From Nanobdellota archaeon (GTDB lineage: Archaea; Nanobdellota; Nanobdellia; Woesearchaeales; GW2011-AR9): a stretch of DNA of 46,263 nucleotides. Location: assembly GCA_030647325.1 (NCBI GenBank), contig JAUSJN010000011.1, forward strand, positions 1-46,263. Reading direction: 5' to 3'. The notes beneath the pieces are model-generated. The model was not told the DNA's origin, searched no databases, and saw nothing but the letters and a program-made list of their open reading frames with translations. This document shows positions 7,534 through 44,885 of this stretch, piece after piece. The translations under genes and the position numbers were made by a program. Numbering within the stretch: position 1 is the first letter of the stretch; each line of letters begins with the position of its first letter.

Positions 7534-7676
7534 GCACCGGTGGTCCAACGGCTAAGACTTCGGCCTTCCAAGCCGACTATCTGGGTTCGAATGCCAGCAA
7601 TCTAGGCGAGTTGGGCGGGTTACTAGTAACCCACCGCGACGATTAGAATGTTGGAACGAAAGTCCCAGCCGGTGCA
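7534..7676 (+). tRNA. tRNA-Gly(TCC), intron-containing
   Basis: Acceptor GCACCGG/CCGGTGC plus discriminator A; anticodon arm TCGGC-CTTCCAA-GCCGA; T-arm CTGGG-TTCGAA^T-CCCAG restored after removing 7592..7662; no encoded CCA; 72-nt mature length. Confidence 0.92.
7592..7662 (+). other. tRNA intron in the T-loop (position 59/60) with bulge-helix-bulge motif
   Basis: Outer helix CTGGG:CCCAG, 3-nt bulge AGT, 4-bp helix TTCG:CGAA, 3-nt bulge AAT, then CCAGC:GTTGG; cleavage AA^T and AG^T restores loop TTCGAAT. Confidence 0.85.
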
Positions 7677-43400: not shown

Positions 43401-44885
43401 CTATCCCTTAACGTTTCCGATCGGTTTCAGCGCAACAACAGGCCTGGTGATTCCTGCTTTATCTAATGTATCAACCACCACGTCAATATCTTTGTAGGCT
43501 GCACCGGCTTCTTCAGCCAATCCCGCCATAGTCACAGCATGGACATAAATACCTTTCTTCTCCATGTCCTGCTGTAATTTATCGCCGCGGATCTCTCGTT
43601 TCGCCTTTGCACGGCTCATAGTACGCCCAGCCCCATGCGCAGTAGAAGCAAAGGTCTCATCAGCTCCATCTGTCGCCAATAATAGATACGAACCAGTTTC
43701 CATGCTCCCGCCTAAAATGATCGGCTGCCCGATCTTGGCATATTTCTTCGGTAATTCAGAAGCTCTGGACGGCCCGAAAGCGCGAGTTGCGCCTTTACGG
43801 TGTACAAGTAATTCTTTCATCTTTCCATCCACCAGGTGTTTTTCTAATTTTGCGATATTATGGGCGACGTCATACACCAGATTCATCTCCATCTCTTCTG
43901 CGCTCTTGCCGAAGACCTGGCTGAAAACTTTTCTGATCTGATGGGTGATGACTTGGCGGTTGGCGAAGGCCATATTTGCCGCACATGCCATAGCTTTGTA
44001 ATAATCCTGCCCTTCCGGAGAATTGAACGGCGCGCAGGCCAGTTCTTTGTCCAGGATTTCGATGCCATATTTTGGCATGACTTCTAAAAATAATTTCAAG
44101 TAATCTGTGCCGATCTGATGACCAAAACCGCGGCTGCCGCAATGGACCATGATCACGATCTGTCCAGGCTTAGTGATGCCCATGATTTTGGCGGCATCTT
44201 TGTCAAAGATATTTTCTGCTTTCACTTCTTGGATCTCTAAATAGTGATTTCCTGAGCCAAGAGTTCCGAGCTGGTCGAATCCACGTTTAGTCGCTTTGTC
44301 AGAAACTTTGCTAGAATCAGCCTGAGGAATTTTTCCATGGCTTTCAATATTTTCAATATCTGACGGCCAGGCATAACCTTTTTTTAAGCACCATTGAGCT
44401 CCGTCGCGCATCACTTCTTTGAATTCTTCCTTGCTTACCTTCACAAATCCCTTACAGCCTACCCCGGCAGGAACTGCTTTGTAGAGTTCGTCAACCAGTT
44501 GATGAATTTTTGGTTTGACTTCATCGATAGTTAGATTAGTAGTCATCAAGCGCATCCCGCAGTTGATATCAAAACCTATACCGCCAGGTGAGATGACCCC
44601 GCCTTCCTTAGGATCAAAAGCAGCAACTCCGCCGATAGGAAATCCGTAGCCCCAATGACCGTCAGGCATGCAATAGGCATAGCGCTGCAGGCCAGGCAGA
44701 GTTGCGACATTAGCGATCTGATTGAAAACACCAGCGTCCATATTATCCATCAATTCCTTACTGGCAATGATTCGAGCAGGAACAAGCATCCCTTTGCGAT
44801 AGGAAACAGGGAGTTCCCAGGTAGTATCATTGATACGTTTGATTTCCTTAGGCGGTCCTGCTGGCTGTTCTTGAAAATCTTCCAT
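43401..44885 (-). CDS. rtcB: RtcB RNA-splicing ligase
   Basis: GGVISPGGIGFDINCGMRLM, VHCGSRGFGHQIGTDYL, HRKGATRAFGPSRASELP, TAHGAGRTMSRAKA; no intein seen. Confidence 0.97.
   Translation of the reverse strand: MEDFQEQPAGPPKEIKRINDTTWELPVSYRKGMLVPARIIASKELMDNMDAGVFNQIANVATLPGLQRYAYCMPDGHWGYGFPIGGVAAFDPKEGGVISPGGIGFDINCGMRLMTTNLTIDEVKPKIHQLVDELYKAVPAGVGCKGFVKVSKEEFKEVMRDGAQWCLKKGYAWPSDIENIESHGKIPQADSSKVSDKATKRGFDQLGTLGSGNHYLEIQEVKAENIFDKDAAKIMGITKPGQIVIMVHCGSRGFGHQIGTDYLKLFLEVMPKYGIEILDKELACAPFNSPEGQDYYKAMACAANMAFANRQVITHQIRKVFSQVFGKSAEEMEMNLVYDVAHNIAKLEKHLVDGKMKELLVHRKGATRAFGPSRASELPKKYAKIGQPIILGGSMETGSYLLLATDGADETFASTAHGAGRTMSRAKAKREIRGDKLQQDMEKKGIYVHAVTMAGLAEEAGAAYKDIDVVVDTLDKAGITRPVVALKPIGNVKG

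Follow-up and report, generated by a model that had tools for sequence, protein, structure and literature searches.

An intron in the T-loop of a Woesearchaeales tRNA-Gly(TCC) gene and its relatives: a mobile family with a putative pseudoknotted core

Results

The intron-bearing tRNA-Gly(TCC) gene

The window, that is, the whole analysed stretch of 46,263 nucleotides, belongs to a Woesearchaeales genome (958 kb, 74 contigs, 90% complete; designated G000). An interrupted tRNA-Gly(TCC) gene was located on its forward strand:

7534..7591, + strand: exon 1 of tRNA-Gly(TCC) (58 nt), with the acceptor strand at 7534-7540, the anticodon TCC at 7567-7569, the T-stem 5' strand at 7581-7585 and T-loop nt 54-59 at 7586-7591
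7592..7662, + strand: T-loop intron of 71 nt at position 59/60, an A-type member of a mobile T-loop intron family
7663..7676, + strand: exon 2 of tRNA-Gly(TCC) (14 nt), with nt 60, the T-stem 3' strand at 7664-7668, the acceptor 3' strand at 7669-7675 and the discriminator A at 7676

An earlier note had proposed a tRNA-Gly(TCC) with a 59/60 T-loop intron at 7534-7676 (+), and this was borne out to the base. The removal of 7592-7662 yielded a normal tRNA, as the note had expected: ARAGORN called a 72-nt tRNA-Gly(TCC) on the intron-free sequence, and the cloverleaf was the minimum-energy fold. Automatic tools had been expected to miscall the gene, and they did. The intron-bearing gene received no call from ARAGORN in a default run and was truncated by Rfam, the RF00005 match covering 7540-7598 only (model positions 7-64, 32.4 bits). 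A search for another intact tRNA-Gly(TCC), the existence of which the note had considered, revealed no second Gly(TCC) exon in the ~90% complete genome. The Gly codon used most was GGA, with 93 uses in ten window genes. The locus is very probably a working tRNA-Gly(TCC) gene with a T-loop intron of a mobile family, predicted to be spliced by an alpha-type endonuclease and RtcB.

The decoy T-arm that had been noticed at the intron start was real but incidental, since CCAG is part of the conserved 5' end of the intron family and matches only because the T-stem of this host happens to be CTGGG. A role of the decoy as a functional switch was rejected because it depends on the T-stem of the tRNA-Gly(TCC) host only.

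Only 10 tRNAs scored above the Rfam cut-off in this genome at 90% completeness. Because genes of this kind are overlooked or cut short by standard tools, the tRNA sets of Woesearchaeales are probably under-counted. It was also observed that several tRNAs of the same genome have introns in the D-arm, the anticodon arm and the T-loop at once, e.g., Pro(GGG) at locus L157.

Splice junctions and splicing enzymes

The precursor folded with z = -4.2, none of 200 shuffles being as stable, and the 71-nt intron alone gave z = -4.06. The following elements of a bulge-helix-bulge (BHB) motif were assigned:

7581..7585, + strand: BHB outer helix, 5' strand (the T-stem), paired with 7664-7668 (CTGGG:CCCAG)
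7586..7589, + strand: BHB central helix, 5' strand TTCG in the exon T-loop, paired with CGAA at 7657-7660 (intron 3' end)
7590..7592, + strand: 5' bulge AA^T, with the cut predicted after 7591 from the intact mature tRNA
7661..7663, + strand: 3' bulge AG^T, a strict 3-nt bulge (AGT), with the cut predicted after 7662

Both the minimum-energy and the centroid structures held the BHB helices and the 3' bulge. The motif had been described as near-ideal, and the CTGGG:CCCAG and TTCG:CGAA helices and the AGT bulge were indeed present in the fold, but the 5' side was a 4x2 internal loop (AATG/AA) instead of a clean 3-nt bulge, so that the 5' site is of the relaxed type.

The junctions were then compared within a set of T-loop introns that was enlarged from 91 to 101 members (family and relatives) and, with order-level copies, to 112. 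The T-loop pairing partners across the introns were TTCG:CGAA or TTCA:TGAA, with the second strand contributed by the intron 3' end. Nucleotide 57 and intron position -6 formed a Watson-Crick pair in 77 of the 101 introns (A-T in 45, G-C in 32), compared with an expectation of 42 ± 4 and a maximum of 56 when intron ends were re-dealt in 1000 trials. The central-helix pairing exceeds chance, and the intron 3' end covaries with the host T-loop. The last two intron nucleotides were AG in 73/101 introns and nt 60 was T in 100/101; an inner helix of 3 perfect base pairs in the canonical geometry occurred in only eight of the 101, which was counted against the main explanation.

A single PF01974 endonuclease gene was found in the genome of the window. 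It encodes a single-domain alpha subunit of 204 aa, the best solved relative of which was the M. jannaschii alpha4 enzyme (1A79), matched over the full length and with no inserted loop. The PF01974 gene was present in 58 of 60 relatives, mostly one in each. Among archaeal endonucleases, the alpha4 and alpha'2 types are described as 'narrow' in specificity and the (alpha beta)2 and epsilon2 types as 'broad' (PMC6379350). The broad-specificity enzyme that the earlier note took to be implied was unsupported, as the sole PF01974 gene is closest to the narrow alpha4 enzyme; the (alpha beta)2 endonuclease characteristic of hosts of Thermoproteales-type transposed introns was not found. The association with Thermoproteales was likewise not applicable, the host being a member of Woesearchaeales with Woesearchaeota metagenome-assembled genomes (MAGs) as its closest named relatives. 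The ligase gene was encoded within the window:

43401..44885, - strand: RtcB, the expected tRNA-splicing ligase (PF01139, E=1.3e-172)

With the genes for both the endonuclease and RtcB present, cleavage and ligation at 7591/7663 are predicted from the sequence. The occurrence of a relaxed 5' site together with an alpha4-type enzyme, a type described as narrow (PMC6379350), was likewise counted against the main explanation given above.

The putative pseudoknotted core

Inside the intron, three further helices were assigned:

7593..7607, + strand: pseudoknot helix P1, GCC 7593-7595 with GGC 7605-7607, the loop 7596-7604 being AGCAATCTA
7601..7647, + strand: pseudoknot helix P3, TCTA 7601-7604 of the P1 loop with TAGA 7644-7647
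7614..7635, + strand: P2 hairpin, GGC-GGGTTAC / GTAACCC-ACC

A common core of this layout is apparent in most T-loop introns: P1 starts from the intron 5' end (GCM...KGCR), the P1 loop pairs near the 3' end to form P3, and P2 lies in between. Covariation supports a putative H-type pseudoknot (P1 and P3) plus the P2 hairpin. P1 covaried across the family as C-G, A-T and T-A, with the variants GCC:GGC, GCA:TGC, GTA:TAC and GCT:AGC, and a longer variant, CAAATG:CATTTG, was readable in L111. In an alignment of 40 sequences (A3), 92.4% of the cells were paired, against 33-43% in slid versions; double-sided changes were found in 108 cells versus 30 in shuffles. Both P1 and P3 exceeded all 500 re-deals in each of two subgroups, the 8- and 9-nt P1 loop types, which were assessed separately. 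Among 24 introns with less than 60% identity to each other, the pseudoknot was found at p<=0.05 against simple shuffles in 12, the pseudoknot statistics in general being inflated by relatedness, although the slid alignments and this diverse set do not depend on relatedness alone. Several of these divergent introns, including Gly(TCC) introns of distant genera, did not reach this level, and the lack of the pseudoknot in the T-loop introns of L039, L026 and L160 was counted against the main explanation.

The 5' strand of P1 overlaps the nucleotides needed for the BHB inner helix, which was counted against the main explanation as well; because of this overlap, P1 and the inner helix may be alternatives. 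A K-turn (L7Ae site) in the A-type core was rejected, as the GA/GA motif was lost in L072, L076 and L080.

Extent and hosts of the intron family

At least 112 distinct T-loop introns were collected from many tRNA isotypes, with up to 11 per genome. When the precursor was used as a blastn query, the intron was found at several places per related genome with an identity of up to 94%, and the loci in relatives had it in other tRNAs at the identical 59/60 site. The covariance model R1 gave matches in 26 of 49 family genomes. The model R2, built from 40 sequences with the intron of the window left out, recovered that intron at E=9.4e-7 and matched 39 of 353 Woesearchaeales genomes, 15 of which lay beyond the family, with no match in a 371-genome phylum sample outside Woesearchaeales. 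Scanning 84,980 species with an intron-core pattern retrieved 34 loci, all in groundwater MAGs of Woesearchaeota/Nanoarchaeota. Two core patterns had no match in viral contigs (IMG/VR), and a viral origin of the core was rejected on that account.

Hosts without further introns, in which the isotype was plain, included Gly(TCC), Gly(CCC), Val, Leu, Ala, Met, His, Thr, Ser and Asp tRNAs. Within the genome of the window itself, Gly(TCC) and Val(TAC) tRNAs were hosts of T-loop introns, and inspection of the sequences by eye pointed to Ala(GGC), Pro(GGG) and Arg(TCT) as further hosts. Many sister genomes had no family copies.

It was considered whether the pseudoknot is a functional RNA (a guide, a regulator or a protein-binding RNA) released by splicing, the tRNA gene being a mere host, comparable to the box C/D guide in tRNA-Trp introns. 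The pseudoknot and parts of the sequence are conserved order-wide while the host tRNA varies, as such a role would lead one to expect, but the high copy numbers within genomes, along with the lack of copies in many sister genomes, are better explained by a selfish element than by an essential RNA. No known Rfam family was recognised, even at E<=5: eight family loci gave nothing meaningful, and a known ncRNA was rejected. A functional RNA was therefore regarded as improbable.

Three side observations were made. The T-loop intron of tRNA-Gly(TCC) at L040 (G040) was ~14 nt long, near the minimum for forming the central helix. The T-loop of tRNA-Gln(CTG) at L079 (G001) contained the core with no resolvable 3' junction; this copy may have decayed or been rearranged. 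A second family of elements (AGAAGAGGTTTAGCTTAGAAAATCC...) was seen in L027, L036, L041 and L044, once as a T-loop intron of Gly(TCC) and otherwise near tRNA-Gly or other genes.

Movement between tRNA genes

Of 83 introns, 71 had their closest relative in a different tRNA and eight had it in the same tRNA. In G024 and G067, introns 95% and 96% identical were found in unrelated tRNAs, the host exons of which were 55% and 63% similar, respectively; near-identical introns in unrelated tRNAs are a mark of transposed archaeal tRNA introns. The 59/60 site of Gly(TCC) was empty in G001, G006, G012, G021, G034 and G053. Even within one genus, the content of the Gly(TCC) T-loop varied: G000 carried an A-type intron there, G002 had a different one and G001 had none. 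Elsewhere in that genus, the A-type intron occupied the Gln and Gly(GCC) tRNAs of G001 and, in G002, the Leu(TAG) tRNA. As the closest relatives lie in different tRNAs and orthologous tRNAs differ in occupancy, it was concluded that the introns move.

These data bear on an alternative explanation, in which an ordinary relaxed-BHB intron is inherited vertically and the introns resemble each other through common BHB constraint only. Such constraint is real, and Gly(TCC) T-loop introns in the distant genera G019, G040, G049 and G052 would allow an early interruption of this gene. Introns of different tRNAs and different genomes are, however, up to 94% identical over 82 nt, which goes beyond a few BHB positions, and the decoupled similarities of introns and exons, together with the distribution in other tRNAs and within the genus, contradict vertical inheritance. 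We consider it highly improbable.

Gene conversion between T-arms through the GGTTCRA...YGAAAGTCC ends and the core, with no insertion into empty sites, was also weighed. Every copy has homologous flanks, the Gly(TCC) genes of G000 and G002 differ in a way that would fit the replacement of one intron by another, and the intron 5' half is more conserved than the 3' half. This reading is rather unlikely, though: the T-stem and acceptor are host-specific up to the junction, occupancy varies with some orthologues empty at the site, and copies outside T-loops, flanked by direct repeats, require true insertion.

Copies outside T-loops

At least eight copies of the core were found outside T-loops with flanking direct repeats of 18-44 bp. 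Repeats of this kind, which would indicate target duplication, were absent at T-loop copies: the similarity of the intron 3' end to the upstream exon averaged 4.59 and that of re-dealt ends 4.53, and T-loop introns as insertions with a hidden target duplication were rejected.

Seven antisense copies adjoined tRNA genes (L002:88-240 on G000:C34, L276, L279, L244, L275, L031 and L270). An intact tRNA was recognised in six of the seven; the copies mostly sat directly after the tRNA and were typically followed by 18-27 bp in which a portion of the tRNA 3' region was repeated, e.g., GTTCAAATCCCTCTAAGGGCTTT in L276. Other copies lay at gene ends or in intergenic regions (L227, L228, L253 and L075 on G000:C35) with direct repeats of ~24-44 bp, that of L075 being identified by eye only. 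Most copies outside T-loops started at GCM or at most 6 nt away, and an A-rich stretch ended several. The core thus behaves like a mobile element, given that its copies outside T-loops are flanked by direct repeats and are often antisense at tRNA 3' ends.

In two loci, L268 and L280 (G069 and G004), the core apparently interrupted the anticodon loop of tRNA-Ala(TGC) as an intron. In G011, two core subtypes formed inverted pairs (L167, L224, L225 and L226), which lay within a larger element that has inverted repeats of ~35 bp (GTAATACTTCAGC...).

One possibility is that the core is a non-autonomous element, either mobile DNA or a retro-element, with insertion sites in tRNA genes or close to them. 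T-loop residents would survive as they are spliceable, and the position of other copies at tRNA 3' T-runs hints at target-primed reverse transcription with the excised intron as template. The direct repeats, the antisense copies beside mostly intact tRNA genes and the recurrent start point favour this reading, and A-rich 3' ends beside T-runs would suit target-primed reverse transcription. On the other side, no reverse transcriptase (PF00078) was found in G000, G001, G004, G014 or G019, which carry many copies; the domain occurred in 6 of 15 carrier genomes and in 11 of 34 others, and retro-insertion by a resident reverse transcriptase was rejected for want of association. T-loop copies have no target duplication, no autonomous partner was found, and the viral contigs gave no match. 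We rate this possibility only slightly below an even chance.

Discussion

It was tentatively proposed that a selfish DPANN element enters the universal T-loop precisely, that its own 3' end completes the splicing signal, and that alpha4-type machinery neutralises the insertion; the same core would insert elsewhere, antisense at tRNA 3' ends or at gene ends, with long target duplications, and would possibly move via the excised RNA. We consider this reading less likely than not. In the main explanation, held to be very probable, the BHB is assembled from three parts: the host T-stem, the T-loop TTCR with the intron YGAA, and an intron-internal structure. The host T-stem, of any sequence, would serve as the outer helix, and the near-universal TTCR with the YGAA of the intron 3' end as the central helix. 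The only endonuclease of the genome, of the alpha type, would release the intron by cutting behind nt 59 and in front of nt 60, and the exons would be ligated by RtcB. The T-loop would then act as a landing pad for the intron family: nearly every tRNA offers the exon half of the motif, so that an intron with a YGAA 3' end could occupy almost any T-loop, which would explain the spread among isotypes.

The mechanism of archaeal tRNA intron gain has been stated to be unknown (PMC4090602). The family described here offers recent intron gains, all at the same position, for which sister genomes provide both donors and unoccupied sites; the question thereby becomes testable. The correlation of non-canonical introns with (alpha beta)2 or epsilon2 endonucleases is also broken, because these genomes appear to encode an alpha4-like enzyme only. 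If true, the reading as a selfish T-loop element would make the family a tRNA counterpart of spliceosomal 'introners'.

Comparison with known systems

Large-scale transposition of tRNA introns has been described for Thermoproteales (Fujishima et al. 2010, as related in PMC4033280 and PMC4090602). As far as these accounts go, the features in common are similar introns in diverse tRNAs, non-canonical positions and a BHB at the junction. The introns studied here differ in the Woesearchaeales host, the single alpha-type endonuclease gene and the one preferred site (59/60). Neither a conserved pseudoknot nor direct-repeat copies outside tRNA introns were found to be reported for Thermoproteales introns in the open-access papers searched. 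Archaeal introns at 59/60 (PMC4090602) and permuted tRNAs joined at 59/60 (PMC3218864) are known, and those of Thermofilum pendens and Cyanidioschyzon share the same T-loop junction (PMC3218864, PMC4090602). In contrast to them, the present family consists of cis introns with a conserved core in many isotypes.

The archaeal tRNA-Trp intron carries a box C/D guide and is likewise a structured intron in a pre-tRNA. Unlike it, the family has no Rfam match, many host tRNAs and a putative pseudoknot in place of C/D boxes.

Archaeal rRNA group I introns are known, including those of Woesearchaeota (PMC6125680). The arrangement of P1 and P3 with P2 inserted shows the topology of the P3/P7/P8 pseudoknot, and CUA:UAG is in common; the family introns, however, lack P4-P6, are far too short and have a BHB. 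A group I relic was rejected, as there is no room for P4-P6 and the eight family loci had no Rfam match.

Among open-access texts, to which the search was confined, no paper on tRNA introns of such a kind in Woesearchaeota or DPANN was found. The family combines transposition of BHB tRNA introns with a pseudoknotted core, a single favoured universal site and element-like relatives, in a lineage whose endonuclease is alpha4-like.
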